In this document: positions 2,287-19,859 of the stretch, piece by piece
Layout of the letters: each line of letters opens with the position of its first letter
Position numbering within the stretch: the first letter of the stretch is position 1
Notes under the pieces: model-generated
Databases searched by the model: none
Told to the model about the DNA's origin: nothing
What the model saw: only the letters and a program-made list of their open reading frames with translations
Origin: a virus
IMG/VR virus record: IMGVR_UViG_3300011118_000011
Span: 1 to 42,894 of that record
Length of the DNA stretch: 42,894 nt
Strand: one strand, 5' to 3'
Made by a program: the position numbers and the translations under genes

Positions 2287-2580
2287 CTAATTTTTAATTT
2301 GTTTTAATTCTTTTTTATTTAAAATTGTGCTGTCACATTCGATCATATTTTTAGTAATATAGACAAAACGATCAAATGTTATAGCTTTAATATTGCATTT
2401 CTCAACTTTCTTTTTTATCTTCTTAATTCTTCTTTTACTTGTATAAATCACAATAGGATCGCTATGTCCTATCATATCGCTATGAAATGTTATTGTTTTT
2501 TCAATTGGCTTACAACAAATAAGCAATCCTAAAAATATAAAAAACAATATTATTCTAATTATATCATTCATTTTATTCAT
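2287..2580 (-). CDS. Small putative lipoprotein
   Basis: This 97-aa protein has an N-terminal hydrophobic segment ending in two Cys (GLLICCKPIEK, Cys22-23). It resembles a lipoprotein signal, although the residue before the Cys is Ile rather than Gly, Ala or Ser. The rest is basic (SKRRIKKIKKK). It lies between the esterase and the lysis genes. A small outer-membrane lipoprotein could pair with the membrane coiled-coil protein as a two-part spanin. That is only a positional guess. Confidence 0.5.
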   Translation of the reverse strand: MNKMNDIIRIILFFIFLGLLICCKPIEKTITFHSDMIGHSDPIVIYTSKRRIKKIKKKVEKCNIKAITFDRFVYITKNMIECDSTILNKKELKQIKN

Positions 2581-2656: not shown

Positions 2657-3550
2657 TTATAAATTTGGCTTAACATCCTGTATATTTTGTGAAATCTGCC
2701 AACATCCTAATGCTGAAAAATGAATATTATCCACTTTAACCTCACAATTATCTGTATTAATTACAATACAATTCGGATATGTTGCTGCTAATATATCTTG
2801 TTGTGCCTGTAAAGCTGTTATTGCATTAGTTCCGTAATACGTTTGATTATCACTTGCTTTTATAATTATAAATTCTAATTCATTATTTCCCGTAACCATT
2901 CTGAAATAATCAAATACATCAGCGCATAAATCTGCATATTGCGTATAATAACCACTGGCTAGTTCAGCTTCCCCCTGTGACCAGATCACACGTTTGAAAA
3001 TTACTTTTGCAGGGTAATGATATTCACGTATTTTTTGAATATTCCATCTTAGCCAGCCAAGCATAAAGCCGTTTGTTAAAGGACACCATTGCTTGGTTGG
3101 TGAAATGCCACTTCCTCCCAGGGCAATTTTTACTGAATAAATTCTTTTTTCTGTCAATTGAGAGACATCATGAAAGTAGTAAGCATCAAAGCCGTGATCT
3201 GTTCTAGGATCAACAACTTCAAAAAATCCAGGGTAGTATTCGCCTGTCGTTATATTATACCTTACTAATTCTTGTGTATATTTCCACTGATATACTTTTG
3301 TTAAAGGAAAGGTATAACCTTCGATTAAATTAGTATTTTCACCACGCCCCACAGCGTTACTTTGTCCTAATATCAGATTATATTCAAATTCTTCATAAAT
3401 AATATCAGAAAGAGGTAATATGTCTACCGCTTTAACATCTTGTGATATACTAATAGTAGTTATTGTTTCAATATTATTAGATGATTCTAATAATGATATA
3501 TCCACATCAATAGGTGTTAATAAAAGTAATATGAATAAATATTTTTTCAT
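2657..3550 (-). CDS. SGNH-type carbohydrate esterase (sialate O-acetylesterase-like)
   Basis: This 297-aa protein carries the blocks of the SASA/CE6 group of SGNH hydrolases, which remove acetyl groups from sugars. The blocks are LGQSNAVGRG with nucleophile Ser64 (61-70), ALGGSG with the oxyanion Gly (142-147), WSQGE with the typical W-x-Q-G-E (189-193), and DNIHFS with the catalytic Asp273 and His276. The first residues (MKKYLFILLLLTP) resemble a Sec signal peptide. The gene sits at the distal end of the tail-fibre cluster, so it probably acts on an O-acetylated capsule, O-antigen or peptidoglycan during adsorption or release. A 1-bp gap separates it from the gene before it. The substrate cannot be read from the sequence. 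Confidence 0.85.
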   Translation of the reverse strand: MKKYLFILLLLTPIDVDISLLESSNNIETITTISISQDVKAVDILPLSDIIYEEFEYNLILGQSNAVGRGENTNLIEGYTFPLTKVYQWKYTQELVRYNITTGEYYPGFFEVVDPRTDHGFDAYYFHDVSQLTEKRIYSVKIALGGSGISPTKQWCPLTNGFMLGWLRWNIQKIREYHYPAKVIFKRVIWSQGEAELASGYYTQYADLCADVFDYFRMVTGNNELEFIIIKASDNQTYYGTNAITALQAQQDILAATYPNCIVINTDNCEVKVDNIHFSALGCWQISQNIQDVKPNL

Positions 3551-3551
3551 C

Positions 3552-5387
3552 TTAATTAACTACTGCTGTATCTGATATATATGCTATTCCTGTTGATAAA
3601 TTACCTGTTTGTGCAAACACCCATATTTTACATCTGAACCACCAACCAGATGCAGCACCCGGAACTGTCATTGATGATTCATCACCAACCGCAGAATATG
3701 CTGTCCATGTACTTCCGTTATTTAAGCTTCTCTCCCAAGTGTACAATGTTTCTCCGGTATCCTCCGTATCTGATTCATCATCATTATAATCATAACTTAC
3801 TGTTATTACATCGGTCACATCCGGGGTCAAATCATCCAGCGCAATATTGGTGGCATAAGGTGCAGCATTTCCGCTCAAGTAATCCTGCAAAACAGTTACC
3901 CTATCTGAAACCTGACTTACACTATTAAAGTTCGTATCATAACGAACGTACATTAATTCTTTAAATTCAAGATATGTATTACCTAGTATTTTTTCGTTTG
4001 ATTCTTCACCGCTCATTGCAATGGCTTCACCAAACACTTCTGAACCATCTATATATACATATATGGAATCTGTTGATCCTATTACATGCGTTATATGTTC
4101 TCCAAAAATTCTTCTTGCGCTGTCTCTATTAGTAAAAGTTGTTTCAGTATTAATACCAAGATAATTAATAAAATCAAAATCTGACATATATGAATTGTTT
4201 GTCAATCTTCGTATCCATATCTGACGATTATTTATTACATCTTTCATTAAATTCATGTTATTGCCCTTATGATTCATAACAATCTCAAAAGTAAACTCAC
4301 CATCATTATCAAAAAGCGGAGTCATCCAAAGTAAATCATTTGTTCGGTCACTTATTAATATATCTCTATCATCACTATAAACAGGTTTATAAGTACCAAC
4401 AGACTGATACCAATCATAATCATTTATAATTGATTGTACATTACTTACCAATGAATCTTCATCACGAGTAACTGTTGTGTCTATGGTGAAATCATAAATA
4501 AATAAACCAACTAAATCTCCCCCAATATTATTTGTAATATTATATTCAACTAATGGCGCACAATTATTAAACCACACAAGATCACGAAGTTTGTTTGTGC
4601 CAGGTGTATAGTCTAATGTCACAACTTCATCTTTTGAAAAATTACTTTGAACAGTAAGATATACAGAATCATTTGAAACCGTCACATCTATAATAGTATC
4701 TGTTCCCACGACCGAACCCGTTGCCATATAATCTGAAGTGTCCGGACTTGTTTCATCTAAATTCTCATTATATACAAGAATAATAATATCAGGATTATCA
4801 TTTTCAATTTCGCCGGATACTATCAAAGGAGCTGTTTCATCTAATTCGTTAAAGTCATTTGTATCTTCTACAATTATTTGATACCAATAATTCTTACCAT
4901 CGTAAAATGTATTTATTACATTTAACGCATTTGCTGTTGAATCAAAATCGTAGCTCCCGTAAATTTTATGAATACCATAAAACGTTGGCGTATAATTTCC
5001 AGCTCCGGCATTGAGATAAATCAAACAGTTCCCCCCTGGTATTTCATTTCCGTTAGTATCGGGTAACATTATAATATCATCAGTGAGTGTATCAATCATA
5101 ACAGAATTAATATCATCAAAAGGAATATAATTATCAAATAGAATAGTATCAATATGATAACTTAAAGCGTCATTTGCCGCTTGTGTTGAATCACTTATCA
5201 TATTAGGTAATGTGTCATTGATATGATGCAACCCAGCGTTGAATTTCAATTGGAACAAATAAGCACTATCGTTAAATTCTAAATCCCTTATTTTTCCATT
5301 GTCATCATAAACAGAATCAGGTGCAGAATATTGTCCAAATAAATTAATTGTTAATAACAAGCCTATACATGTAAGTATTTTTTTCAT
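3552..5387 (-). CDS. Large secreted or fibre protein with SwmB-like, LamG-like and Ig-like domains
   Basis: This 611-aa protein starts at 5387. A longer frame to 5477 is possible but would overlap the repeat protein gene by about 90 bp, and the start at 5387 gives a clean signal peptide (MKKILTCIGLLLTINLFGQ). About residues 183-286 resemble a SwmB/Ig-like domain (DETAPLIVSG, VTLDYTPGTNKLRDL). About 320-505 resembles a LamG/concanavalin-type sandwich (WMTPLFDNDGEFTFEI, DSIYVYIDGSEVFG). About 525-611 is an Ig/PKD-like module with paired Trp. Such domains bind surface sugars, so a host-binding fibre or a phage-encoded surface protein is likely. The domain calls are from pattern only. Confidence 0.7.
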   Translation of the reverse strand: MKKILTCIGLLLTINLFGQYSAPDSVYDDNGKIRDLEFNDSAYLFQLKFNAGLHHINDTLPNMISDSTQAANDALSYHIDTILFDNYIPFDDINSVMIDTLTDDIIMLPDTNGNEIPGGNCLIYLNAGAGNYTPTFYGIHKIYGSYDFDSTANALNVINTFYDGKNYWYQIIVEDTNDFNELDETAPLIVSGEIENDNPDIIILVYNENLDETSPDTSDYMATGSVVGTDTIIDVTVSNDSVYLTVQSNFSKDEVVTLDYTPGTNKLRDLVWFNNCAPLVEYNITNNIGGDLVGLFIYDFTIDTTVTRDEDSLVSNVQSIINDYDWYQSVGTYKPVYSDDRDILISDRTNDLLWMTPLFDNDGEFTFEIVMNHKGNNMNLMKDVINNRQIWIRRLTNNSYMSDFDFINYLGINTETTFTNRDSARRIFGEHITHVIGSTDSIYVYIDGSEVFGEAIAMSGEESNEKILGNTYLEFKELMYVRYDTNFNSVSQVSDRVTVLQDYLSGNAAPYATNIALDDLTPDVTDVITVSYDYNDDESDTEDTGETLYTWERSLNNGSTWTAYSAVGDESSMTVPGAASGWWFRCKIWVFAQTGNLSTGIAYISDTAVVN

Positions 5388-5388
5388 G

Positions 5389-5607
5389 TCAATTTCTATT
5401 AAATGTTGCGCCCCGGATAAAAATACCGTCCCGGCGAAAATACCCTCCCTCGAATAACCATATTTGGTCTGATGCATCCGGATTAAGGTCTATCGTGTCA
5501 TAATTAAAATCAAACTCATCGGTCATTAGATAACTAAAACAAAATTCATCAGTTATAGAATAATTAAAATCAAATTTATCTAATATGTCATAATTAAAAT
5601 TATGCAT
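5389..5607 (-). CDS. Small protein of four 10-residue aromatic repeats
   Basis: This 72-aa protein opens with four 10-residue repeats that start at the first Met: MHNFNYDILD, KFDFNYSITD, EFCFSYLMTD and EFDFNYDTID. A C-terminal Gly/Phe/Arg-rich part follows (FEGGYFRRDGIF). The alternation of aromatic and polar residues predicts short beta strands, as in shaft-like fibre segments. It overlaps the previous gene by 8 bp and stops 2 bp before the next start. Function unknown; a minor fibre or adhesin part is plausible. Confidence 0.6.
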   Translation of the reverse strand: MHNFNYDILDKFDFNYSITDEFCFSYLMTDEFDFNYDTIDLNPDASDQIWLFEGGYFRRDGIFIRGATFNRN

Positions 5608-6004
5608 TAGCTTTTAAATAATAATCTGTGTCGTCCCATATTATCTTATCTTTAGTGCTGTCATCTGCAAAATTCGTGTTGTTCCATATAATTGTATATT
5701 TCGCCCTTACCTGTCCCGTTGCACTACTGGTAGTATATGACCCCAATATATAAACTGTAAAATAATCAGTGTCATCATCTGCTGTCAACTGCATGTTATC
5801 ATTGTCGTCATAGCTTACCGTTACCGGGACTAATGTACTTTCGAGCTTTGTAAATTCGTGTATAGAATTACCATCTTTGTCGACCAACTCGCATTTCACA
5901 TCGCTTAAATTAGAATCCGAAAACCAGAACCTACCGACTTTTTTCGGCATCCGCATTACTGGTTGTTCATCTGAACCTTTTGTTATATATATTTTATCTG
6001 CCAT
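5600..6004 (-). CDS. Virion-associated hypothetical protein
   Basis: This 134-aa acidic, beta-rich protein (VTVSYDDNDN, YFTVYILGSYTTSS) has no signal peptide, unlike its two large neighbours. It lies between the main fibre gene and the repeat protein gene, and resembles short baseplate or fibre-accessory proteins often encoded after tail fibres. No motif with a known role was seen. Confidence 0.6.
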   Translation of the reverse strand: MADKIYITKGSDEQPVMRMPKKVGRFWFSDSNLSDVKCELVDKDGNSIHEFTKLESTLVPVTVSYDDNDNMQLTADDDTDYFTVYILGSYTTSSATGQVRAKYTIIWNNTNFADDSTKDKIIWDDTDYYLKANA

Positions 6005-6015
6005 TTTTTTTATTT

Positions 6016-7821
6016 TTAATACATATATATTTTAAAATTTTTAGTGCTTAACGTTGATGTCCCGGATTCAATTTTTATCCTTATCTGTATGTTATCTCCG
6101 TCTTGTAGCCATATGGGCATCGCTGTACATACAGGCCCGGGATAATAGATACCTGCTGTTGATGTTGTTGATGTACTTGTGAGCTGTGGTATTTCTATAT
6201 ATTCACCGCCTGTATGTTTAACAAAAATCCCTGTATATATTGTTTCATTTACACTCGATGCTGCATTTGTACATGAGTAGTGGATCCTGAATTTTATAGA
6301 ATCCCTCAAATCTGAAGCATCCTGATCAAATTGTAAAGTATCACCGTTAAACGAAAAATCATTTGAAATTATATGTGTAAATTTATTATTCTGTCCATCC
6401 CCTATAAACTGCCATGTCGTAGTTGCTGATGTTGTAACAGTTGAATCAGGATGTGTAAACATTGCTTCCTCATAACGATGATGTTCGATTGTGCCGTCCA
6501 ATATAAAATTTCCTTTTATAATGATGTTTTTGAAAAAAACAGCCGAATCAGGATATATTTTTACCAACGTGTCAGCTCCGTTTTTTATGCTATATTTTAG
6601 ATGGTCAATATCTGTCACTATAGGCGCATCATCTGCTTCTATCTCTATCCCTGCTGATGTTATCGTGATATTACCTCCTAAACCTCCATCGTTTGTTGAT
6701 ATTTGAAATGATGTTGTTGAACTGGCAGTAAAATAATCAGGATAAACAGCAAAATTTTCTATCCCGGCCACGCCGCCAGCATAAAAATCAGTACCGTCAA
6801 AGGTAAGTTCCTGGCTTGTCGTCAAAGTGCCAGAAGTATTATAAAGTAATCTACCAGTTGTTAGCCCGGAAATATTAAAATCATTAAATATTTTTGTTTC
6901 AACGGAATTTATTCTTAATAATGTATCATGATCCGAAGTACTTATATTACCTAGATATACTAAATCTTTATCCATGTAAATTCCGTAAAATTGCTCATCT
7001 GAATCTCCTGCGTATAATTTAGCATTTACCTTTGTGTCATCAAATATTTGTAATCTTGCAGTTTCATTTTGTCGTACCGCTAAATTATGCCCTTCACCTA
7101 CACCTAAGTTAATAGCATTATTTCCAATATTAAAATAATATTTCATACTGTCATTAGACATTAACTTGTCTATATAAAATGTTTTAGCTGCTGCATATAA
7201 ATCAAAATATGGGTTATATGATGAATATTGTTCATAACCATCATCACTGTATACCCTAAACCTTCCTGATCCTGAATAATTATCAACCATCATCCTGATA
7301 CCATCAGCTTTAATTAATAAAGTATCATTTGTGCGTATAATAGATGTGTCATTCTTAACAGTATCACTTTTTATATACAACATACCCTGATCGTCCATGT
7401 TTCCTATTAACAATTTATCTGAAATGTCAACAATACCTGTTATATCAAATTCCCCGCTTGCCCATATCAATGAATCTTCGCCTTTTAATTTATTAGCTGC
7501 TGTAAAAATAGCTAATTGATTTGTTACAGGTGTTGCTGTTGTGTCAAGAACACCTAATTTAGCTGTATCAAGGCATTGTTGTATTTTACTTTCTATGCTA
7601 TCAATAGTGACTAATTTAGTGTAATAATTAGCAGTCAAATATACTGTTAACACATAATTATCCAACGTGTCTTTAGCCCATTCAACAGTTGCAATAGTGT
7701 CTCCAGTCTCAGCATCGGTTAACCAATTGCCATTTAAGGCTATTTTATCAAATACCCCATTATTTGCAAATAGAAATAATGAAATAATTGTAAATGTTAA
7801 TATTAAAATTTTCTTTTTCAT
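6016..7821 (-). CDS. Tail fibre-like protein with signal peptide
   Basis: This 601-aa protein starts with MKKKILILTFTIISLFLFAN, a textbook Sec signal sequence. A long repetitive beta-rich shaft follows, with many Asp/Ser/Thr turns (GRLLYNTSGTLTTSQ, LTFDGTDFYAGG). The last 160 residues or so form a compact beta domain that could be the receptor-binding tip (HTGGEYIEIPQLTSTS). The layout and the position after the distal tail genes match a tail fibre. The signal peptide is odd because virion proteins are normally assembled in the cytoplasm. Confidence 0.7.
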   Translation of the reverse strand: MKKKILILTFTIISLFLFANNGVFDKIALNGNWLTDAETGDTIATVEWAKDTLDNYVLTVYLTANYYTKLVTIDSIESKIQQCLDTAKLGVLDTTATPVTNQLAIFTAANKLKGEDSLIWASGEFDITGIVDISDKLLIGNMDDQGMLYIKSDTVKNDTSIIRTNDTLLIKADGIRMMVDNYSGSGRFRVYSDDGYEQYSSYNPYFDLYAAAKTFYIDKLMSNDSMKYYFNIGNNAINLGVGEGHNLAVRQNETARLQIFDDTKVNAKLYAGDSDEQFYGIYMDKDLVYLGNISTSDHDTLLRINSVETKIFNDFNISGLTTGRLLYNTSGTLTTSQELTFDGTDFYAGGVAGIENFAVYPDYFTASSTTSFQISTNDGGLGGNITITSAGIEIEADDAPIVTDIDHLKYSIKNGADTLVKIYPDSAVFFKNIIIKGNFILDGTIEHHRYEEAMFTHPDSTVTTSATTTWQFIGDGQNNKFTHIISNDFSFNGDTLQFDQDASDLRDSIKFRIHYSCTNAASSVNETIYTGIFVKHTGGEYIEIPQLTSTSTTSTAGIYYPGPVCTAMPIWLQDGDNIQIRIKIESGTSTLSTKNFKIYMY

Positions 7822-7826
7822 AATTT

Positions 7827-8282
7827 TTATATAAATCCTTCAATTACTTTTGCCCATAAATTAAATGTACCTGAATGTCGGGTAACATATATTGTTAATG
7901 CACCCGAAAAGGTTTTATTGACTGTAAATGTTTCAATACCTGATGCAAATGATGTTCTTGGTACTATATCCCCTGTTCCTGCCGATGAACCAATTTCAAC
8001 ATCAACAGTGCCGCTTATTTGCTGGATAATAAAAAATAATACTACTGTCCCGGGATCATAACTGAAATTAAAATTTGCACTTTGCGACAAATATTCAGCC
8101 TTTTCTCCTGCTATTGCTGTAACAGCATCTATATCGGCTTGTAATAAACTTTGAAAATTCGCTAAACTTATCACAAAACTTTCATAACCGCCAAACCCAT
8201 CTGATAAGATAATATGTAAATAACTATCGGTTGGGTCTGTAGCTTCAAACCCTGTCCCTATTTTGCTGCTAAGTACTGGCAT
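7827..8282 (-). CDS. Tail-associated hypothetical protein
   Basis: This 151-aa protein has an N-terminal part with GFEATDPTDSYLHIILSDG and a beta-rich C-terminus (FTVNKTFSGALTIYVTRH). It overlaps the upstream gene by 14 bp and lies 5 bp before the fibre gene, so the three are translated as a unit. It probably belongs to the distal tail or fibre attachment. No known motif. Confidence 0.6.
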   Translation of the reverse strand: MPVLSSKIGTGFEATDPTDSYLHIILSDGFGGYESFVISLANFQSLLQADIDAVTAIAGEKAEYLSQSANFNFSYDPGTVVLFFIIQQISGTVDVEIGSSAGTGDIVPRTSFASGIETFTVNKTFSGALTIYVTRHSGTFNLWAKVIEGFI

Positions 8283-9087
8283 AATAACTTGTTATTCGTT
8301 TAACTAATTTTATTTTAATGTTCACAAGATCAGATTTTTCAAGAGGTTCTATATCCAGCGGATCTGATCTTGAGTAATCAATGCCATTTACTTCTATTCT
8401 GTCACAACTAAAAATCAAATTTATATTTTCTATATAACTATGATGTATATTAGTAAGTGTTAATGTTGCAGCATGCATGGGCGTTGATTTTAATATTTCT
8501 TCTCCTCCACGATCATTTGTATATGCTGATGTTTCATTTCGAGGGTCATAATTTTGTAATATACCTGTAAAAAATGTCAATCCTGTATATTTTGAAACGG
8601 CATCATCATAAAAAATCATTCCATAATCATTGATAGTATTATAAAAACTTATTTCAACAAGATATTTTTTTAATAAAATATCTGAATGTACAACGAATTC
8701 ATCAGACTGAACACCGCCGCTTTCATATAATATATAATAGACACCTGATTCAGTCGGTGTAAACTCATATGAATAAATATCCCCGCTTATCCATCCCGAA
8801 GGGGTAATATCTGTACCGTAAATCGTTGAATAATACTGATATACTTCAACAGCAGTATTATATTTATATACCGTAATATTATGATCGTATGATGTTGTTT
8901 CTTCAAATTGAATGGTAATTGTCCTGTTTACTATATGATCTTTAAAAAATTGTGTCGCATACATCCCCGGTATATTATTAACCCTTTGTGTTATATTTCG
9001 ATAATTAGGCCATAGAGTTGAATAATCAGGATCATTCGATGTTTCTCGAAATCTTAAAGGGTTCATATCTGGTAAATGTAATGCCAT
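8269..9087 (-). CDS. Distal tail / baseplate-associated protein
   Basis: This 272-aa protein starts MALHLPDMNPLRFRETSND. It contains two beta-rich halves, the first with an Ig-like pattern (YSYEFTPTESGVYYILYES). It lies directly after the large distal tail gene and before the fibre genes, where hub and fibre-connector proteins are encoded. Family not named from sequence alone. Confidence 0.6.
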   Translation of the reverse strand: MALHLPDMNPLRFRETSNDPDYSTLWPNYRNITQRVNNIPGMYATQFFKDHIVNRTITIQFEETTSYDHNITVYKYNTAVEVYQYYSTIYGTDITPSGWISGDIYSYEFTPTESGVYYILYESGGVQSDEFVVHSDILLKKYLVEISFYNTINDYGMIFYDDAVSKYTGLTFFTGILQNYDPRNETSAYTNDRGGEEILKSTPMHAATLTLTNIHHSYIENINLIFSCDRIEVNGIDYSRSDPLDIEPLEKSDLVNIKIKLVKRITSYYAST

Positions 9088-9090
9088 ATT

Positions 9091-11247
9091 TTAATCAAAT
9101 TCGTATTGAGTTATTTCTTCAAAATTAAACAAAGTTTCATCTTCAAACAAATAATTTTTGTCAACACTGGGTGATCTAAGAAGTTTATAGGTTGCCATGT
9201 TATCATATCCCTGGCCCTGTATTTCAAGAATAAAACCTGCAAAATCAATATTATTAGAACTAAATTGTATAATCCCGTGCGGATTTGCATTTATAGCATC
9301 TATATGTTCTTTTGTAAATGGCGCTTTGAATTCATATATTTCCGGGAAAAATAGCGGATCACCTAATATGTTTGACGCTGTAAGGCCTGTCAGTTCTGAT
9401 TCACCGTTTATTTCTATAAATATATTTTTTTGTGTTTTTACAAATTTAGTCTCTTTATCTGATAACCACAGAGGGACACCTATATATTTTGACCAGCGTT
9501 TTAAATTTTCCCGGGGTGTAAATTTCGTATTATAATATTCGTTCGATCCCTGAAATCCATCCGTAGTGTTCACTCCATGATATGTAAAAATTGAAGGGTC
9601 ATTAAATACTGTAAATCCTGCATGCACTATAAATATTTGCTCATCATAACGTGTATCAGTTTGCGGGTATTCGTCATAAGGCTGTCTCCTTGCCAACTCC
9701 ATCCCTACAGTATCCCCATTAATCAACGTTCGTAAATCTTTTTTTTCTTTAACTGCTAATTTTAGCGAATGCACACATGGGACATTGAATTCATTTGCCC
9801 CTTGTAACTCTTCATATTCAACATCTTCATTATACCCGAATGATATTTCATTGAAATAATGTTCTTTAGCTGGTTTCCTTGTTAATCCTGATATATCACC
9901 AAGATTAAATAATATAGTTGAATCATCAAAAAATGCTGTTTTATGATCTAAATAAAACCTGTCATTTATTCTGTCGTAGCCAATTCCGAAAAATGCTAAT
10001 GCATCTATTGTCTTGAATAATTGTCGTAATGATATATTAAATGGTTTATCAGGATATTGTCTTAAATTCCATCCAGAAACTACGAATAAATCACGATATT
10101 GACCTAGGATAGAATAAACAAAATTTGTATTACCCAAATAACCCAAAGGATTGGCAAGCAAGATATTTGCCGGGGTATCTTCTGACGTTGTTAATTGAAT
10201 TAATCTTACAAGGGCATCATGTATAGCATATCCATTCACATCGGTATCTTCTTTTCCGGGAGATTGTTCATAAATATTTAATTGAGTAATATTAAAGGTA
10301 ATATCAATATCATTATCCGGATTAGATAAATACCATCCACGAGAAAACCATAATTTTACTTCAATATATCCATCGGGTGGCACTGTCCACTCATAATAAG
10401 GGGATGCATCACCTTTATCAAAACTACCCGTAAATGGTGATCCTGATTCTGATAATGTATGGGCACAATACTGAGTTGGCGTATATATCGCAGTACCTCC
10501 TGAATTATAAACAGTTACCATTAAACGCATTACTGTTGATGCTTGTTCTATATCCGGGTGGTTATCGTAATCAATATCATAATTACCCGCCATATCAAGT
10601 GTCACAACCGTGTCAAATGCGGTGCTATTCGTGTATATAGGGTTTGTGTCGCTTACCCGTGTACCGATTATATTTGAATTTATCGTAATTGACGGGTCTA
10701 AATATTCCTGTTGATTCCCATTGTTTAAAGTAATATCATCAATAACACTACCCGTTGCATATGCATTTAAATATATATTTATTGTTTTAAATTCTATCTC
10801 TGCTGTAAACCCGTAATCTGTCATAGTGTCACCATCTACAGAAACAAGTGAATTTATATCAAGTTCTAACTCATCACGTGTGAAAAATTTTTGTTCTTTA
10901 CTCCCGTCAATAGCACCGATTTCAAAAAACAGGTTATCATAATCAATACTTATCCTTTCAGGATTAAAATCTAATATGCCGTCAAATATAGTATCATAGT
11001 CATTTGTCTGTGAGTTTCTTTCTTTTATTTCGAAAGTCATCGAGGCTTCTATTCCATCTGTATCATAAGCATCTAATATATCTAATCCACCACCTCCATC
11101 TTTTAACGGAAATCTTAAATTTAAAACCAGGCTACGGGCAACCGACCAATAAAATTCATTCCTTATATACGTGATACCTAATTTATCCCAACCAGCCGGG
11201 GCAATATCCAATTCAGTACTATCTAATATAAATTTATATTGTGTCAT
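9091..11247 (-). CDS. Large distal tail protein (baseplate hub / tail-associated)
   Basis: This 718-aa protein begins MTQYKFILDSTELDIAPAGW. The N-terminal part (LRFPLKDGGGGLDIL, FDGILDFNPERI) resembles distal-tail-type beta domains that close the tail tube. The rest is mixed alpha and beta with many aromatic residues. It follows the tape-measure gene with a 4-bp start/stop overlap (ATGA), the usual place of the Dit/Tal-type proteins in siphoviruses. No peptidase or hydrolase motif was recognised. Confidence 0.75.
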   Translation of the reverse strand: MTQYKFILDSTELDIAPAGWDKLGITYIRNEFYWSVARSLVLNLRFPLKDGGGGLDILDAYDTDGIEASMTFEIKERNSQTNDYDTIFDGILDFNPERISIDYDNLFFEIGAIDGSKEQKFFTRDELELDINSLVSVDGDTMTDYGFTAEIEFKTINIYLNAYATGSVIDDITLNNGNQQEYLDPSITINSNIIGTRVSDTNPIYTNSTAFDTVVTLDMAGNYDIDYDNHPDIEQASTVMRLMVTVYNSGGTAIYTPTQYCAHTLSESGSPFTGSFDKGDASPYYEWTVPPDGYIEVKLWFSRGWYLSNPDNDIDITFNITQLNIYEQSPGKEDTDVNGYAIHDALVRLIQLTTSEDTPANILLANPLGYLGNTNFVYSILGQYRDLFVVSGWNLRQYPDKPFNISLRQLFKTIDALAFFGIGYDRINDRFYLDHKTAFFDDSTILFNLGDISGLTRKPAKEHYFNEISFGYNEDVEYEELQGANEFNVPCVHSLKLAVKEKKDLRTLINGDTVGMELARRQPYDEYPQTDTRYDEQIFIVHAGFTVFNDPSIFTYHGVNTTDGFQGSNEYYNTKFTPRENLKRWSKYIGVPLWLSDKETKFVKTQKNIFIEINGESELTGLTASNILGDPLFFPEIYEFKAPFTKEHIDAINANPHGIIQFSSNNIDFAGFILEIQGQGYDNMATYKLLRSPSVDKNYLFEDETLFNFEEITQYEFD

Positions 11248-14243
11248 TTTCTAAAATAAGTATCTATATAATGAACGTATGAATTACTATCATTTACTAT
11301 TCTTTTCATTCCGCTATCCGTAATTAAAGTCTGGTTAACAACCGTTTTCCTGCTATTTGCTTTTCGTGTTTCTTTTATTAATTCATCTAATTTTTGATCT
11401 GAAAGATTAGTTATTATTTTTTTTGTTTCTGCTGCTGGATGAACTTTCGAACCTTTCGGTAAATATGTCATTGTACTCGTTTCAGGTGTTATTGCCTTTT
11501 TGCCTCCAGGATATTCTATCAATTCACTACCTTCTTCACCAACTAGCGCTAAACCTTCAGGTGAATGTTTTGTCCCTTTTTTGAATTTTGGTATAGGCAC
11601 GGCAGCAATAGCAGCAATTTGCAAACCTCCTAATACTTTCATTAATCCAGCTACAATCAAATTAGCAGGAGCTGGTAACGTCAGGGCTTTTGTCACAGAT
11701 TGTCTTGTGTTTATTATTGCATTAAATATTCCCTGTGCTTTGTCAACGAGCGCCTGTCTCCTTAATATTTTTCGTCTTTCCTGGTCAAATTTCTTCTCAA
11801 TCCGTTCACGTTCACCAGCGTTATTCCCCGCTATTTCTAGTTCAAGTGCTTTTTTTGCTTCTAAATTATCAAGTCCACGATCATCAAAACTTTTTAATAT
11901 ATTAAATGTCTCGTTGGCTATTGCTACTTTTGCCTGATTTTTAGCCCTGTCGATCTCTTTTTCAATTTCCGCCGCTTCCCTTTTCTTGTTTAATAAATAT
12001 TCCTGTAGTTCGATCTGTTTATCAACCAATTTTGTTTCAAGCGCAGTACGTTCTTTAATACTCATTTCTTCCTGTTTCAGCAATTCTCTGTAATATTCAA
12101 TAAAGATATTTAAAACATTGGTCGTATATTGATCGTAATATTCTTCACCCTGATCTAGTAATTTTTTTCTTTCCCTTAATAGTTTTTCTTCTAATGTTTC
12201 AGGGGTAACCGTTACGCCACGTGAAGGAAGAGGTTCTAATCTTTTCATGCTTATCTTTTCACGTTGCGCTAATAATTCATCTTCAATATCCTTTTCCTCA
12301 TTTTTCTTAATTATCAATTCCTGCGTTTTATCAATCTCCAATTGTAGTAAATCAACATATATTTCAGCCATTGGGATAATTCTGTATGTCAATATCGATA
12401 ATTCTGATTTTGCATTTTCACGTGCTTTTTTACCTCTAATTTCTCTATAATTAGCCAGTTTATATTCTAATTCACTTAATTCTTGTTTCCATTCTTTTAG
12501 ACTATTATTATAAGCGTTTTGTGTCCTTTTTAACTCCCCTAGTTGTGATTCTTCACTTTTTATTCCCGATATTGATTCTTTTAATAATTTTAATCTTTGC
12601 TTCGCCTGTTTTTCATTTTCCTCTATATTTTCCTCAATTAATAGTTCTTTAACTCCCATCGACGCTACTGTTGCTACTCTTGTTATATTAGTCATCATTC
12701 GTACAATTCCCCTACTGGCTCTTGCTAACGACCCTTGTCCATCCTCAAGCGATGTAATGAACTTATCCCATGCGCTTGATAATTTTGTTATATCCCCTGC
12801 TAAATTATCCAGTTTAGTTTCAACCATTCTTTCTAGTTCGTCATTGACATCAATTAAATCATTTCGCAATGTCCGTGCACTCTCTGCACCATTTAAGAAC
12901 GTGTTGAATGCCGCGACACTACGTTTATCCGTCATTTGCAATGTTTCATTAAGGTCGACACCTTGTACTTTTAATTTTTTTAATCCATCAATCAATTCAT
13001 CGAAGGTTTTGACAGACCCGCCAAGTTTTTTTGCCAATACCCCGTTAGTGTCGGCTAAACTCAATAATATGTTACGTGTTGCTGTTGTTGCTTTTGAGGC
13101 ATCAAACCCTGAATCCCTTAATTTGCCAAACATCGCTATCGTGTCCTCTATCTGAAATCCAAAAGCCTTTGCGACCGGGGCTACTGTAGATAACGCAGCT
13201 TCATAATCACTAAATGAAAGGGCACTTTTTGTTGTCGCTACTGCTAAAACAGAGGTAACACGGTTCATTTCAGAAGCATCTAAACCGAATGCCCTTAGTG
13301 CCGCCCCTGCCACTTTTGCCGCAGGAGCTAATTCTGCACCCGTTGCGCTTGCAAAATCCAATACTGCTTTTGTTGATTGCCTGATTTCATTTTGTGTAAA
13401 CCCTAATTTTGCCAGCTCGGTCTGCAGCTCAGATACTTGTTTAGCTGTAAACTCAGTTACTCCACCATATCTTTTAGCATCTTTTGTTAAATCTTTGATT
13501 TCTTTTTTCGTTTTTCCCAATATAGCAGCCAACGAGCTTTGTGCTTTATCAAATTCAACTATTTTTTTTGTAATACTTGTTATTATCCTGGCAAATGCCA
13601 TAACGCCACCCACAACACCAAATGCCATTAACAGGTTTTTAAAGGCACTTGTATAACGTCCAACATTACGGTTAAACCTTCCCATACGGGAATCCAAGTT
13701 TTGTAACGCTTTAGTTTGTCTTTTTATATCTTTTTCAAGCTGTTTACCAACCTTGCTATTATCACGTTCAGCTTTCGTGAGGCTTTTAAACTTAATAATA
13801 TTATTTGCTAATACTTTCTGTATTTCTGTATACGAGCCTGTCAATACACGGGATTGTGCAGCGTTGGCACGTTTCAATTTTATTTCATCCTGTAGTTCTT
13901 TTTTCTGCTCTTTTCTCTTTTGCCTCAAATTCTCTAATATTTTGGCTTCATGTGTACGTTCAGCAATTATTTTTGATTGTATATCTAATGTTTGTTTTTC
14001 TATTTTTTGTAATTCAATTTCTGATTTTGTTAATTTATTAACATCTTCTGATACTTTATTAATACGCTCAGAAACTTTTTTTTGTGTTTTAGCCCCGCTA
14101 TCAAACTCTTTTTTCATTTCTACAGCCGCCTTAGTTGTATTATTCAATATTTTTGTTAGGCTTACTAATGCCTTTTCAATATCAATAAATTCCTTTTTAA
14201 TTTCAGGACTGATAATATCATTTTTTTCTATACGGCCTGGCAT
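11244..14243 (-). CDS. Tail tape measure protein
   Basis: This 999-aa protein sets tail length and is carried inside the tube. The first 200 residues or so are coiled coil (many Lys, Glu, Gln). Next come a hydrophobic segment (LLMAFGVVGGVMAFA) and a TP901-type core (about 230-420) with FDKAQSSLAAILGKT, GVTEFTAKQV, LAKLGFT and AAKVAGAALRAFG. More coiled coil follows, then a hydrophobic Ala-rich region and the common C-terminal signature GLALVGEEGSELIEYPG. At about 1.5 angstrom per residue this would suggest a tail near 150 nm. It overlaps the upstream frame by 26 bp. Large plus-strand frames opposite it are shadows. Confidence 0.95.
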   Translation of the reverse strand: MPGRIEKNDIISPEIKKEFIDIEKALVSLTKILNNTTKAAVEMKKEFDSGAKTQKKVSERINKVSEDVNKLTKSEIELQKIEKQTLDIQSKIIAERTHEAKILENLRQKRKEQKKELQDEIKLKRANAAQSRVLTGSYTEIQKVLANNIIKFKSLTKAERDNSKVGKQLEKDIKRQTKALQNLDSRMGRFNRNVGRYTSAFKNLLMAFGVVGGVMAFARIITSITKKIVEFDKAQSSLAAILGKTKKEIKDLTKDAKRYGGVTEFTAKQVSELQTELAKLGFTQNEIRQSTKAVLDFASATGAELAPAAKVAGAALRAFGLDASEMNRVTSVLAVATTKSALSFSDYEAALSTVAPVAKAFGFQIEDTIAMFGKLRDSGFDASKATTATRNILLSLADTNGVLAKKLGGSVKTFDELIDGLKKLKVQGVDLNETLQMTDKRSVAAFNTFLNGAESARTLRNDLIDVNDELERMVETKLDNLAGDITKLSSAWDKFITSLEDGQGSLARASRGIVRMMTNITRVATVASMGVKELLIEENIEENEKQAKQRLKLLKESISGIKSEESQLGELKRTQNAYNNSLKEWKQELSELEYKLANYREIRGKKARENAKSELSILTYRIIPMAEIYVDLLQLEIDKTQELIIKKNEEKDIEDELLAQREKISMKRLEPLPSRGVTVTPETLEEKLLRERKKLLDQGEEYYDQYTTNVLNIFIEYYRELLKQEEMSIKERTALETKLVDKQIELQEYLLNKKREAAEIEKEIDRAKNQAKVAIANETFNILKSFDDRGLDNLEAKKALELEIAGNNAGERERIEKKFDQERRKILRRQALVDKAQGIFNAIINTRQSVTKALTLPAPANLIVAGLMKVLGGLQIAAIAAVPIPKFKKGTKHSPEGLALVGEEGSELIEYPGGKKAITPETSTMTYLPKGSKVHPAAETKKIITNLSDQKLDELIKETRKANSRKTVVNQTLITDSGMKRIVNDSNSYVHYIDTYFRK

Positions 14244-14919
14244 CTTTTTTTATTATTTCGTTTTGTTTGTTTATTGCTTTGACTATAGCAACCCATTCAG
14301 CTACTGTTATATTATCCCTCAAATTTCTATTTAATGCATTTTCTACTGATATAATCATTTCTTCATATGAAACATTTTCCTTTTTACTCATCTCTTTCTT
14401 GAGTATTCCCTCAATCTGCATTCTTGTCTGGATACTTAATATTTTAAAATTTAATTTTTTAATATTTTCTGCACTGATCTTATCATAATTCACGTTTATG
14501 CTTTTTAAATATTCTAAACACTTAACATTACCCATTCTCATTAAAAGATAAGACCCTTTTAAAATATTGAGATCGTTTATTTTTTTATAATGATAATTGA
14601 TTTTTTTTAAGTTATTGCTATAATCAATCTTATTCGTTAGCTCTTCATATTCCCTCATTATCGTTTCCCAGCAATCTTTTAATAAATCAATATCATATTC
14701 TGCTAAATAATCACAATCAAGAATATAACGTAAATCACCCGTTTCAATTACAAACCAAAATTTTTTAAATGGTAATGTCCGGCACGTTTTGTGAGGTTTT
14801 ATCGTCTTTAGATTTCTTTTTAGTTGCCTGTTTAATTTCCTCGACTGGCTTCTTAACAGTATCAACAATTTCAACCGTTTTACCATCTTTATCAATGATC
14901 TTGATTTTACCTTTTTCAT
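14218..14919 (-). CDS. Second frame of tail assembly chaperone pair (frameshift product part)
   Basis: This 233-codon open frame lies immediately before the tape-measure gene. Its first 50 residues are very basic and look like out-of-frame reading of the gene before it. Protein-like sequence begins near PFKKFWFVIETGDLRYIL, exactly where the upstream frame stops at 14765. The likely product is therefore a fusion made when ribosomes change from the upstream frame by +1 (equal to -2), as in G/GT-type tail chaperones. The later part is helical and charged (DNITVAEWVAIVKAINKQ). The first ATG after the overlap is at 14661, which would leave a conserved-looking stretch untranslated. A sequencing indel is the alternative. 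Confidence 0.6.
   Translation of the reverse strand: MKKVKSRSLIKMVKRLKLLILLRSQSRKLNRQLKRNLKTIKPHKTCRTLPFKKFWFVIETGDLRYILDCDYLAEYDIDLLKDCWETIMREYEELTNKIDYSNNLKKINYHYKKINDLNILKGSYLLMRMGNVKCLEYLKSINVNYDKISAENIKKLNFKILSIQTRMQIEGILKKEMSKKENVSYEEMIISVENALNRNLRDNITVAEWVAIVKAINKQNEIIKKDARPYRKK
14755..14790 (-). other. Candidate programmed frameshift region
   Basis: On the minus strand the end of the upstream frame reads ACC ATT TAA, followed by an A/T-rich run (AAAAATTTTGG). The downstream frame continues as TTT AAA AAA TTT TGG. A shift of +1 or -2 at or just before the stop would fuse the two frames. The homopolymeric A/T context is compatible with slippage. The exact site is not proven, and no stem-loop was worked out. 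Confidence 0.4.
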
Positions 14920-15052
14920 AAATGCTTTTTAATATATTTGCGCCTTTATAATATTTTGATATAACAATTGCCCCGGTTTTTGTAACTGTATGATTAATTT
15001 TTCTTACTGCTGTTAATTGAATTAATCTTATTTTGCTATCCTGTAAGTCCAT
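14765..15052 (-). CDS. Putative tail assembly chaperone (first frame)
   Basis: This 95-aa protein (MDLQDSKIRLIQLTAVRKIN...) has a charged Lys-rich C-terminus (QATKKKSKDDKT). It lies between a head-tail connector gene and the tape measure, where tailed phages encode the G-type chaperone that binds the tape measure during tail assembly. The start overlaps the previous gene by 17 bp and the end overlaps the second frame by about 155 bp. Identity rests on position and the overlap architecture, not on a family motif. Confidence 0.6.
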   Translation of the reverse strand: MDLQDSKIRLIQLTAVRKINHTVTKTGAIVISKYYKGANILKSIYEKGKIKIIDKDGKTVEIVDTVKKPVEEIKQATKKKSKDDKTSQNVPDITI

Positions 15053-15479
15053 ATTGTATAATTATTTTTAATGGTTCTTTGATTAACTGAACAAATTCTT
15101 TTTTATTTGATTCTGTCAATCCATATATTTGATCTTCGCCATATTTGTTTTCCAATTCTGGCGCTTTTGAATCACCAGATGATATTTCAATATAATTTGG
15201 TGTTATTTTAGTTTCAAATCTTGAATAAAAATCACCTGTCAATTTTAAATCAGGTATCCCTAATGGTGCTTTTGAACCTATTGATTTTTTAAATCTAGCG
15301 TACTCATCAAACGCATAAGGTGGTTCAATCTCAATGCCATCTGGTGCTATCCCTTTTTCTAGCTGACCTGTATTGAGATCAATCAATTCAGCTTCATGCT
15401 CATGAATGACAGTATCAACAATTTTATCAAAATTATTAATAACCTTTTTCAAATTAGTATGAAGCTGAATAAAATTCAT
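15036..15479 (-). CDS. Tail completion / HK97 gp10-like protein
   Basis: This 147-aa protein contains IDLNTGQLEKG, a central KSIGSKAPLGIPDLKLTGDFY and SKAPELENKYGEDQIYGLT. These resemble conserved Bacteroidota phage neck or tail-terminator proteins related to the HK97 gp10 group, which close the upper end of the tail. It stands between the tail protein gene and the chaperone pair. The assignment comes from recalled family patterns and order. Confidence 0.65.
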   Translation of the reverse strand: MNFIQLHTNLKKVINNFDKIVDTVIHEHEAELIDLNTGQLEKGIAPDGIEIEPPYAFDEYARFKKSIGSKAPLGIPDLKLTGDFYSRFETKITPNYIEISSGDSKAPELENKYGEDQIYGLTESNKKEFVQLIKEPLKIIIQYGLTG

Positions 15480-15484
15480 CTCAT

Positions 15485-16384
15485 TTATGCTGACAATGTT
15501 TCAATATCAGATTTAAATAATTCTGTTGTCGATGCTATCACCTGGCATGTACCGCTTGTCAAGCCTCCAACCGAAACATCAATAGTATACGTTCCCGGTG
15601 TCGCAGTGCTTTCTGTTGCTGTATAATCTGACGCTGGGTCCATCAATGCCCCTACTTGATCTATAACATTAAAATTCGCTGCTACCAAATTAGATATTGC
15701 AAATGTTTTAAAAGCATCTGTTGAATTATCAATTTCTGAATTACTTAACCAAGCTACAGTTGCCGTGAATGCATTCGCTGTTACTGTAGATACTGTCAAA
15801 TCTACCTTCAATATACCATACAAATCTGATGCAATCCATGTTGGGTTGCCATATACCCCGTTTGCATCATATTCTTTAATATCTGCTTTTTGAAATTCAA
15901 CTGGTGTATAAGCTGCAGTATCACTTGACGGTGTTTCCTGCTTTCCTACACGAAAATATGATAACCTAAATCCCTGTACCGCAGTGCCATCAGATGATGT
16001 ACCTATTACATTCCCATTTTTGTCAAGTTCAAACATTCTCCAACTTTTCAAAGAATATTGATTTTTCAATATCTTATGCAAATCAAGAGGTAAAATAAAT
16101 TTCCACATTTGCCCCCTTGTTCCTTCATATTGAAAAACTTTATTTCCTGTACCAGTATCAAGAACAGCATCTTCTACATCCTGATTTTCCTGCTCCTGGA
16201 TTAACTGTAAAGGAAATATGTTGCCCGCAGCAATAGCGGTAAGCCAATCGGCTTCGGTCATAAAACTACTAACAGAAGCAAAAGCATAATCCGGCCTAGT
16301 GAGAAATGCCCCTACTCTTACTGTTATTGGTGTGGCTTGCTGACATAATTCACCAAGTCCATCTACATTTGCTAAACATTCCAT
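15485..16384 (-). CDS. Putative major tail (tube) protein
   Basis: This 299-aa protein starts MECLANVDGLGELCQQATPI. It has a mixed core (GTRGQMWKFILPLDLHKIL, FELDKNGNVIGTS) and ends in an Ig-like beta region (ATESTATPGTYTIDVSVGG). Size, order (after connector genes and before the chaperones and tape measure) and beta-rich content fit the tube subunit with an added Ig-like domain. No motif is diagnostic; the gene just upstream is also a candidate. Confidence 0.6.
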   Translation of the reverse strand: MECLANVDGLGELCQQATPITVRVGAFLTRPDYAFASVSSFMTEADWLTAIAAGNIFPLQLIQEQENQDVEDAVLDTGTGNKVFQYEGTRGQMWKFILPLDLHKILKNQYSLKSWRMFELDKNGNVIGTSSDGTAVQGFRLSYFRVGKQETPSSDTAAYTPVEFQKADIKEYDANGVYGNPTWIASDLYGILKVDLTVSTVTANAFTATVAWLSNSEIDNSTDAFKTFAISNLVAANFNVIDQVGALMDPASDYTATESTATPGTYTIDVSVGGLTSGTCQVIASTTELFKSDIETLSA

Positions 16385-16397
16385 AATTCATTTATTT

Positions 16398-17843
16398 TTA
16401 AGGTGTTAATACATATTCATATAAATATATTGATTCTATATAAATTACAACATCTGTGCCCTGCCTTGGAAATGAAGCCATACCAATTCGCATCCGATAT
16501 GTATCATCAGAGGGGTATGTAAGTGTTATTACATCAGCTGTATATTTCCATTCCCCGGCAGTATCTTCTAAGTCTAAATTTATAAAGGCATTAATACTGT
16601 CATCATCTTCTATAGCCCATACTCGTAACACATCATTTGCCCCTACAGTAGCATAATTACTTTTATATTTTATTAGGACATAATATTGAAATCCTGTTCG
16701 TGGGGGCGGCCATTGTTTAAAAAAATTATCATTTAAGGTTATTATTGATGATGATTCAGTATCACCCCCTGCATATATGTTTATTTTTATAATTAATTCT
16801 GTCTGCGGATCACCAGGTTCCCAATCTGTTGTAAATATATAATCGTAATCGAAAGTTACAGCAGAAAATGCTTCACAATTATTTGGTATTTTTTGATCAT
16901 AAGTATTAACGACAACATCAGAAAATGCAGGATATGCTATTCCATTTGATAGATATAATGAACTTATATCGTAATTAAAATTAATTACCCCATAGGGGCT
17001 GTCAATGTATAGATACCCACTTGTTGGTAATTTATCGCATTCTAATTCCCAATGATCTGTATCATAGCTAACAGAATAAATAGTTTGTGATCCATGGGTA
17101 TCGTCGATAATGCTAACATCAGCTAAAATAATTCCAGTTGTTACTTCATCATTATTACTGTCTGTTACTAAAAATCCTAAAACTGTCGAAGTCCCGAATT
17201 GAATTATATAACAATCTTGTATTTCCCAATAACTAACAGAAGGAGGCGGTTCGCCAACTTCTTCAAAATATTGGAGAGGATAATATATCAAAGCGTTCTG
17301 ATTAAATTCTAATTTTGTAAAATTAAAATCTTGTTCACTATCAACTGTCAAGTCAATACGCATTCCCGATGGATAACTAAGATCTCCAAGAATTAATTTT
17401 GTGACAGCAAATAAATCACACCGGATACCGAAATTGTCTGTACCGTCCAGTATGCTTAACATATTATTATTTTTATCCTGTAAATATATATATGCTGGCT
17501 TGTTGTGTAACTCTTTTATTTTATTATAAAGATCGTTGTCATAATTAAAAAACAAAGAAAATTTATATTTTCCCCTATATATTTCAATTTCTACATCTTG
17601 AATATTTGTGTTCCTTACGGGGTCTTCATGATCGATTTCTGAGTCATCACTGTTATAAATAGGTATTATATTATTCAATGCTATCTGGTCTCGCCATTCC
17701 TGGGCATCTTCAATATCTGCATCGGCAAAATAAAATGACGAATTCACTACAAACAGATTAACAAATGGTGCATAATCTGATAATATGTCAGCAAAGTCAC
17801 AATTTACGACCCCCGGGTTTGTATTTTTAAACGCAAATATCAC
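16398..17843 (-). CDS. Virion structural protein, tail region
   Basis: This 481-aa protein appears to begin at a GTG codon at 17843, because no ATG exists near the start of the frame and the first residues are well formed. It overlaps the previous gene by 17 bp. It is rich in Asp and Tyr and in beta-type sequence (FDYDYIFTTDWEPGDPQTE), and its last 150 residues look like a carbohydrate-binding or jelly-roll domain. It may be a tail or decoration protein. No catalytic motif. Confidence 0.6.
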   Translation of the reverse strand: MIFAFKNTNPGVVNCDFADILSDYAPFVNLFVVNSSFYFADADIEDAQEWRDQIALNNIIPIYNSDDSEIDHEDPVRNTNIQDVEIEIYRGKYKFSLFFNYDNDLYNKIKELHNKPAYIYLQDKNNNMLSILDGTDNFGIRCDLFAVTKLILGDLSYPSGMRIDLTVDSEQDFNFTKLEFNQNALIYYPLQYFEEVGEPPPSVSYWEIQDCYIIQFGTSTVLGFLVTDSNNDEVTTGIILADVSIIDDTHGSQTIYSVSYDTDHWELECDKLPTSGYLYIDSPYGVINFNYDISSLYLSNGIAYPAFSDVVVNTYDQKIPNNCEAFSAVTFDYDYIFTTDWEPGDPQTELIIKINIYAGGDTESSSIITLNDNFFKQWPPPRTGFQYYVLIKYKSNYATVGANDVLRVWAIEDDDSINAFINLDLEDTAGEWKYTADVITLTYPSDDTYRMRIGMASFPRQGTDVVIYIESIYLYEYVLTP

Positions 17844-18315
17844 TTTTATAATTTACTGTTATTGTGTAAGCAAAAATATGTTTGGGAATAATATCCCTGT
17901 ATTTTACATCCTCCTGGTATAATCCTGAATAAACATCCCTTATTCCTATTTTAGTATTTATTATCTCATTGACATACCCGCACATTGCCAATAATTTATA
18001 AATATATAATTCTATCTTTTCCCTGTTATCTGTCTCAAGTGTACATATAACATCAATAGTTGCTGTACATTGAAATGATTTTAATTCCTTTTCCAAAACC
18101 CTGAACCCTATCACTGAGTTTACACGGTCATCAATCAATGGTTCTTTTTCATTATATTCTAACACCAGCCCTTTTTCTTTTTCTTGTAAAAATAATTGTC
18201 CATAAATATTACAGTTGTTTAAAATATTATCTTTTTCACATTTGTGATCTATATAATTTTGAATTAAATAGATTTTCTCATCAACTCCATATCTATTATC
18301 CGGTGCTATTATCAT
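17827..18315 (-). CDS. Head-tail connector / tail terminator-like protein
   Basis: This 162-aa protein (MIIAPDNRYGVDEKIYLIQ...) contains ECDN-free beta segments such as CTATIDVICTLETDNREKI and ends with YAYTITV-type strands (FAYTITVNYK). It follows the 345-aa structural gene with a 4-bp overlap. Size and order in the head-to-tail segment suggest a neck or tail-terminator part. No clear family signature. Confidence 0.55.
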   Translation of the reverse strand: MIIAPDNRYGVDEKIYLIQNYIDHKCEKDNILNNCNIYGQLFLQEKEKGLVLEYNEKEPLIDDRVNSVIGFRVLEKELKSFQCTATIDVICTLETDNREKIELYIYKLLAMCGYVNEIINTKIGIRDVYSGLYQEDVKYRDIIPKHIFAYTITVNYKSDICV

Positions 18316-19349
18316 TCTCTTGTTATTAATTTAATTTCCTTTTTCTGCTTAAAGGCATCACGTAATTTTTTTACTTCCCTTTCCAATTCATTTTTTAAAC
18401 CATATATTTTTAATTCCGGGTTTCCTTCAATAGAAAATAACATATTATTACGAATTTCATTCGTCACTCGTTGATTATAATTACTGCGAAAACTAGCCAT
18501 TATCATTTTAATTATTTCTATCTGTCCGGCCTTTTGAATTGCGCCGCTTATCAAATTTTCGCTTCTTAATATAATATCTGTGTAATCTTCAAATACAATT
18601 ACATCTGGATTAATACCTGTGTTTTCCCCTAATCCTTCTATATCCTGTAAATCAAACAATTCACTTCCTGTATGATCCGGAACATTAATCCTTTCTATGC
18701 ATAAATTATCAAAATATGCCATAAGATCAGCATTTTCATAATTTCTTTTATAAGATATTAAATTTCCTTTTACATAACCCAGGTAATATTCGCCATCATA
18801 ATTAGTTGTGTTATCAACAATCCAGCTTGATGTTGGTGATAGACTTTGAAAACCTGTAGTTGAAATAGTAAATTCTTGAGCATATAATGCATCTTTTTGA
18901 TTTGATGAAAATAAATAAACTGTTATAGTTCCTGTATTTGTAAATTCAAAAAATATACGTTTTACTTCAAAAGCTATATTTGCTTTTTTTCTTATTCTAT
19001 AACCTATAAATCCATTCGGTAATATTTCGTTATCTTGTTTATTTTGTGCATAAGGAAATAATAAATCACGTTCTAAAAGATCATCATTATCAAATACCTG
19101 GTCCACTACATTAATAATAGCATTTTTCTGGATACCTGTTAATAATTCGTTTATTTGTGTCCTTGTAGCATTTTTATAATCCTGGCAGTCTTTGATATAT
19201 TCGATCTTACAATAAGCATTATCAGTAAAATATCTTCCCGACCTAGATGCTTGATTTGTCTCATTAACAACATTAAAATCAGGATTTGAGGGTTTGGCGT
19301 ATCCAACCAAACCCACTAACCCTGTATTTATTTTTGTACGATTAAACAT
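18312..19349 (-). CDS. Virion structural protein near capsid gene
   Basis: This 345-aa protein begins MFNRTKINTGLVGLVGYA, a start that I associate with a conserved protein in Bacteroidota phages. The middle is beta-rich and resembles a jelly roll (GTITVYLFSSNQ, WIVDNTTNYDGEYYLGYVKG). The C-terminus is helical and basic (ELEREVKKLRDAFKQKKE). It lies two genes downstream of the major capsid gene and probably belongs to the neck or head surface. Exact function unknown. Confidence 0.65.
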   Translation of the reverse strand: MFNRTKINTGLVGLVGYAKPSNPDFNVVNETNQASRSGRYFTDNAYCKIEYIKDCQDYKNATRTQINELLTGIQKNAIINVVDQVFDNDDLLERDLLFPYAQNKQDNEILPNGFIGYRIRKKANIAFEVKRIFFEFTNTGTITVYLFSSNQKDALYAQEFTISTTGFQSLSPTSSWIVDNTTNYDGEYYLGYVKGNLISYKRNYENADLMAYFDNLCIERINVPDHTGSELFDLQDIEGLGENTGINPDVIVFEDYTDIILRSENLISGAIQKAGQIEIIKMIMASFRSNYNQRVTNEIRNNMLFSIEGNPELKIYGLKNELEREVKKLRDAFKQKKEIKLITRE

Positions 19350-19859
19350 TTAATTGCCCAACCATTCTTTTATCTCAATATCCCTGTTTTTAGTGGCATT
19401 TACGCCACCAAGCCCAACAACGCCAGTACTTGAAGCATTACCTATATGCGTAACACGTATCAGCAGATACCTGATATAATCTGCTGTTGAATGCTCCTGA
19501 AATGTTACTGTTGTATCTACTGATGCTTCATAATAGACCGCAGTGCCTATACTTGAATATGTGTCATCTTCAAATATTTTACCAAATGGTTCTATTTTTA
19601 CAGAATCAGTACCATGTGTACATGAAACAACCGTGTCAAGATATACATTAATATCCGTAAATACAGGTCTTGCAGGTATGAATAGAAATTCAACTTCAAG
19701 AGTATCCTGATTATTACTTACAGTATCTGATGCATTAGCTTTATAATAACCCCGTGATCCATTGCCAGGTACTTTACCAAGCCTGGACACATCTTGTCCA
19801 TCTGCTTTACAAGCAAATAATAACAAGATTGCTAATATTATATAAAAATATTTTTTCAT
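19350..19859 (-). CDS. Putative lipoprotein encoded next to the capsid gene
   Basis: The start at 19859 is chosen over 19892 because it gives a complete lipoprotein signal (MKKYFYIILAILLLFACKADG with lipobox LFAC, Cys17) and is preceded by GGAGG 7 nt upstream, a rare true Shine-Dalgarno in this genome. The mature part is beta-rich (VEFLFIPARPVFTDINVYLD). A decoration or neck protein would be expected here, yet the signal predicts export and lipidation. It may be displayed on the host surface, for example in superinfection control. That role is a guess. Confidence 0.65.
   Translation of the reverse strand: MKKYFYIILAILLLFACKADGQDVSRLGKVPGNGSRGYYKANASDTVSNNQDTLEVEFLFIPARPVFTDINVYLDTVVSCTHGTDSVKIEPFGKIFEDDTYSSIGTAVYYEASVDTTVTFQEHSTADYIRYLLIRVTHIGNASSTGVVGLGGVNATKNRDIEIKEWLGN

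Follow-up and report, generated by a model that had tools for sequence, protein, structure and literature searches.

Particle assembly in tailed phages is generally placed in the cytoplasm, and a literature search recognised no description of exported virion proteins in this group, a weak negative because most subscription journals lay outside its scope. For the P. gingivalis phages (Nixviridae), the accessible part of the source describes genes with Bacteroidetes Q-rule signals, whose products have a potential for outer-membrane modification (PMC10367356). The Q-rule, that is a small residue at position -1 and Gln at +1 of the cleavage site, is described in the available sections of PMC5837995; according to those of PMC10653852, which repeat the point on the P. 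gingivalis phages, ~71% of the signal peptidase I substrates follow this rule. In addition, the partial text of PMC8776804 mentions, for Ingeline and Nekkels, proteins with lyase domains 'carrying signaling peptides', and that of PMC6199706 states that signal peptides are lacking from phage DGR target proteins. A close likeness to the locus described here is provided by the Cellulophaga phages phi18:3, phi19:1, phi10:1, phi19:3, Nekkels and Ingeline, in which the last tail-module genes encode large proteins with Sec signals, mostly with Gln sites. The records of phi18:3, phi19:1 and phi10:1 cite MS/MS data for this fibre module, whereas the Q-rule proteins of the P. gingivalis phages are, in the accessible part of the source, of unknown function and not assigned to the virion (PMC10367356).

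The window, i.e. the whole stretch of DNA analysed here, is an AT-rich virus record from IMG/VR, 42,894 bases long. Its late genes are encoded on the minus strand, where terminase, portal and capsid are followed by connector, tape measure, tail and lysis, the connector being assigned by synteny with Pan5. The original prediction held that four late proteins, starting at 3550, 5387, 7821 and 19859, begin with clear Sec-type signals. The relevant features are as follows (arrows mark predicted cleavage sites):

19873 to 20910, minus strand: major capsid protein (MCP), the anchor for synteny
19350 to 19859, minus strand: 169-aa precursor directly after the MCP, at the place that the 'cement' gene takes in Pan5 (scorer and synteny)
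19797 to 19859, minus strand: predicted signal peptide of this precursor, residues 1-21, cleavage ADG↓Q22; the lipobox LFAC (Cys17) competes with this site
11244 to 14243, minus strand: tape measure protein (TMP), marking the tail module
6016 to 7821, minus strand: 601-aa late protein, fibre-like by position, predicted signal residues 1-19, LFA↓NN
3552 to 5387, minus strand: 611-aa late protein with a weak SWM-repeat match, predicted signal residues 1-18, LFG↓Q
2657 to 3550, minus strand: 297-aa SASA-type carbohydrate esterase (PF03629), hydrophobic N-terminus, signal doubtful
2287 to 2580, minus strand: 97-aa small lipoprotein candidate (LICC) adjoining the lysis genes (rule-based scorer)

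Just before the TMP gene, overlapping frames of 95 aa and 233 aa (14218-15052) resemble a frameshifted pair of tail-assembly chaperones.

Signals were called with a simple rule-based scorer of our own, not SignalP, which considers a positive n-region, a hydrophobic core and small residues at -3 and -1 or a lipobox, and shuffled N-termini served as the null. Under the relaxed rule, exactly the four predicted proteins were picked from the 31 minus-strand proteins of at least 130 aa. All four belong to the 22 late proteins of this set and none to the nine others (shuffle rate among late proteins 0.84% per protein, shuffle P 3e-5). The strict rule kept two of the 22, namely 7821 and 19859 (shuffle P 8e-3). 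The former is called Sec and the latter lipo/Sec, whereas 5387 yields a weak Sec call that fails the strict cut and 3550 the weakest call of all, a hydrophobic stretch without an A-x-A-like site. Thus, 'clear' was too strong a word for 3550. The list of four was also too short, as the 97-aa late protein at 2580-2287 is lipoprotein-like as well. Possibly, this candidate is an outer spanin. All four starts are genuine ORF starts, and the choice of start appears plausible at 5387 and 3550, because the ATG lies one base past an upstream stop codon (TGA and TAA, respectively), and at 19859, because GGAGG immediately precedes it. The Q-rule describes the sites of 19859 (ADG↓Q) and 5387 (LFG↓Q), but neither 7821, a good signal with Asn at +1, nor 3550, which lacks a fitting cleavage site. 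A reading as Type IX secretion cargo was dropped, since the C-terminal sorting-domain model was absent from the NCBIfam matches of 10 proteins (four from the window) and from the Pfam matches. The 297-aa protein matches PF03629 with 46.4 bits (curated cut-off 24.8). For the 601- and 611-aa proteins, no homologues were found in viral contigs or phage records, including the collection that contains the Cellulophaga phage records, and searches of PDB sequences were of no help.

The MCP of the window shares 29.7% identity with its Pan5 counterpart and 33.7% with the MCP of the LS06 phage. As a single query it found no relatives, but MCP alignments did; in a genome collection, they matched four loci, each of them in a Bacteroidota MAG (Flavobacterium in two cases, Chitinophagaceae and Lacinutrix in one case each). 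The Pan5 gene flanked by the capsid and adaptor genes carries the annotation cement protein and its product starts with MKKLFLLVALVIGMASITQA↓Q, and the protein at the equivalent place in LS06 starts with MKKLLFILAFAVLGMAANA↓Q. The Pan5 gene and the window gene have in common the slot between MCP and adaptor, an N-terminal signal with a Gln site and a related MCP; however, the two proteins are 21% identical with few shared columns, and 'cement' is the record's own label. By its position after the MCP, the 19859 protein occupies the gene slot of a capsid cement or decoration protein. The Gln-ended signals of Pan5 (locus L010, 5945-6346) and LS06 (L004, 29163-29576) are of the Bacteroidetes type and both MCPs are related to those of Bacteroidota phages, so that the recorded hosts, a cyanobacterium (Pseudanabaena) and a member of the Rhodobacteraceae, respectively, merit a check.

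A gene in this slot is present in 10 independent loci, namely the window, Pan5, LS06, L013, L015, L017, L018, L019, L020 and L057 (L014 carries the same genes as L013, and the two were counted as one). All 11 proteins encoded there (two in L013) have the motif [AGS]Q at residues 18-23, and nine of the 10 loci receive a signal call under the relaxed rule, L017 being scored 'hydrophobic only' on account of Asn at -3. The gene is absent from P12002L and its kin (L011, L021-L032), from the closest MCP kin of the window (L033-L037) and from L056 and L058; L038 lacks a signal gene at this place, and L012, L016 and L055 are uninformative as their contigs break off at the capsid gene or shortly past it. 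Alignments of seven and eight family members contain Met1 and the Gln as the only invariant columns, which is supportive rather than exact given gaps around the site and distant members. The mature parts are highly divergent, six members being 15-21% identical to the window protein, and the family alignment is too weakly conserved to serve for a scan. The lipobox predicted for 19859 is present as LFAC, but is to be read with care, because the family keeps Met1 and Gln only and the competing ADG↓Q is the conserved site. In the L018 and L057 members, too, a Cys lies within the hydrophobic core ahead of a Gln site. PHROG searches gave no match for the window protein or five other family members, and neither did Pfam for the window and L018 proteins. 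Two structure models had mean pLDDT values of 49 and 54, too weak to interpret, and one fold search with a weak model returned nothing at E <= 0.001.

For the Cellulophaga phages, virion status was taken from GenBank record notes reading 'annotation based on experimental MS/MS proteomics analysis', a few of which end after 'part of structural virion'. The set comprised the marked proteins in the fetched stretches of five phages, leaving out one edge-cut phi4:1 protein. By the relaxed rule, 12 of these 67 proteins start with a signal, although MS detection in lysate-derived particles could reflect carry-over of periplasmic protein. They make up three of four annotated proteins in phi18:3 (gp085, gp086, gp087), four of 14 in phi19:1 (gp101-gp104), four of 12 in phi10:1 (gp091-gp094), one of 21 in phiSM (gp08) and none of 16 in phi4:1. 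Gln occupies +1 in 11 of the 12, phi19:1 gp104 being the exception. In phi18:3, phi19:1 and phi10:1, the signal-bearing block represents the final tail-side genes before the lysis region. These annotations contradict the premise of the original prediction, which took a signal to speak against membership in the virion. Of the two explanations it offered, an unusual fibre-assembly route is favoured, as signal-bearing fibre-module proteins are MS/MS-recorded in virions of four Cellulophaga phages. Further support comes from the signal-bearing gene in the head 'cement' slot, which the window possesses but which was not seen in the fetched stretches of phi18:3, phi19:1, phi10:1, phi19:3, Nekkels and Ingeline. 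Decoration of the host surface is less favoured and would concern above all the SASA esterase at 3550.

In the gp086 family, pairwise comparisons of phi18:3 with four other phages each revealed no nonsynonymous and four to six synonymous differences within 20 signal codons, a pattern indicative of purifying selection. The signal of the gp087 family has undergone two to four nonsynonymous changes, yet its hydrophobic, Gln-ended form is retained. The C-terminal residues 232-402 of Nekkels gp53 match phi4:1 gp047, which is MS-annotated and signal-less; therefore, the domain common to both would not need export.

How widespread are such proteins? Among 20 records of Bacteroidota-type phages, the strict rule called 42 of 624 proteins of at least 130 aa, and 31 of the 42 have a Gln site. 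In the controls lambda, T1, P22, Mu and D3, four of 201 were called, namely Lom, the endolysin of Mu and two Rz spanins; a Gln site and a virion annotation are absent from all four. The Fisher P of 0.008 for this comparison is a guide only, as close relatives, partial records and unequal samples are involved. Downstream of TMP-related genes, a strict signal protein of at least 150 aa occurs in four of 34 non-duplicate loci, always with a Gln site. These 34 loci, each with at least 5 kb downstream, remained from 80 after 41 had been dropped as too short downstream and five as duplicates; one of the four positives (L116) is the Nekkels sequence already contained in the survey of phage records. 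Among the relatives found by MCP, the downstream regions fetched encode four consecutive tail-tip signal proteins in G002, two in G004 and one in G006, and none of fibre size in G003, where one weak 75-aa call was obtained. The idea that all Bacteroidota phages behave in this manner was rejected, because P12002L, hattifnatt, Danklef_2, 11b, BT-TP2 and phi4:1 (in the stretch fetched) lack a strict signal protein of at least 130 aa, and also because of the four positives among 34 TMP loci. In view of the latter ratio and the mixed MCP relatives, signal-bearing virion-type proteins are a lineage trait, and a minority one, rather than a rule of Bacteroidota phages.

Locus L002 was rejected as a relative of the window, as the similarity was confined to 19 residues of the signal and it looks like an unrelated phage. 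It encodes four late signal proteins (9907-16199), mostly without Gln sites, one of them just downstream of the capsid region and another a GIGT-repeat fibre; therefore, the pattern may reach beyond Bacteroidota. A 392-aa protein in its late region (10416-11594) has many hydrophobic stretches and is O-antigen-ligase-like by eye only.

We propose that the window encodes precursors of accessory virion proteins, one at the cement position and others of the tail-tip fibre or depolymerase type, that leave the cytoplasm through Sec, undergo cleavage in the periplasm and become attached to particles at lysis, a model to which we assign an even chance. According to this model, the accessory proteins would be made in the cytoplasm and exported by the host Sec machinery, signal peptidase I would cut the precursors, typically before Gln, and the products would be kept in the periplasm while head and tail cores assemble in the cytoplasm. 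Upon breach of the inner membrane at lysis, particles would encounter the accessory proteins stored in the periplasm, which would then bind to them. Sec export and signal peptidase I cleavage are well supported by the predicted sites, export in the window phage itself being deduced. Virion membership of the window's signal proteins is suggested by gene position and by the MS/MS records of relatives, and we infer joining at lysis because particles form in the cytoplasm, whereas exported parts lie outside until the inner membrane opens. Counting against the model are the lack of detectable homologues of the 601- and 611-aa proteins, the minority character of the trait, the Asn at +1 in the 601-aa protein and the lack of a confident fold, as well as the missing cement-slot gene in the closest MCP kin and the signal-less domain of phi4:1 gp047.

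Alternatively, the proteins could be exported without being virion parts and act on the host surface or outside the cell, e.g. by blocking superinfection, by trimming glycans of the surface or the matrix (SASA esterase) or by aiding progeny release. This would agree with the carbohydrate esterase match of the 297-aa protein, with the signals on lyase or lipase domain proteins of Pan5 and phiSM, among them a phiSM pectate-lyase protein whose record note cites no MS/MS, and with the outer-membrane-modifying potential of Q-rule proteins noted in the accessible part of the report on P. gingivalis phages (PMC10367356). However, the 12 signal proteins of four Cellulophaga phages carry MS/MS virion annotation, and two 130-aa signal proteins outside the tail modules of phi19:1 and phi10:1 are annotated as hypothetical only, and we regard this explanation as unlikely, albeit the strongest competitor.

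Less probable still is that the signals go unused during infection, the proteins remaining cytoplasmic and assembling normally; the hydrophobic segment would then act as an attachment peptide or be trimmed off. Virion proteins are generally known to assemble in the cytoplasm, a leader is annotated on a lambda virion protein (the portal), and phi4:1 builds the related C-terminal domain without a signal. Against this stands Gln at +1 after a small residue, found in 11 of 11 cement-slot and 11 of 12 MS/MS-annotated proteins, which is the Bacteroidetes signature of signal peptidase I in the available text of PMC5837995 and PMC10653852 and would have no obvious use unless cleavage took place on the periplasmic side. 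The Gln sites likewise argue against chance or hitch-hiking, i.e. hydrophobic starts arising in an AT-rich genome or host-captured signals no longer under selection. The base composition of the window, the simplicity of the scorer and the weak call at 3550 could be cited in its favour, but the shuffle P of 3e-5, the purifying pattern on the gp086-family signal and the conservation of Gln in the fast-diverging cement-slot family make such an origin very improbable.

Returning to export followed by joining at lysis, the wider version is put forward tentatively, at somewhat below an even chance. Here, capsid cement and tail-tip fibres would be Sec-exported as entire structural modules and added to finished particles only at lysis. 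It forms one joint claim with processing by the signal peptidase I and glutaminyl cyclase of the host, which would yield pyroglutamate-capped virion proteins and is held with the same reserve. If periplasmic maturation of receptor-binding and cement proteins holds true, phage assembly would gain a second, spatially separate step under lysis control, in which fibres are kept apart from capsids until release, and particle composition would depend on host export enzymes. This could also account for the secreted Q-rule proteins that P. gingivalis phages are reported to encode and whose function is unknown, and Gln-ended phage signals may provide a genomic marker for Bacteroidota hosts.
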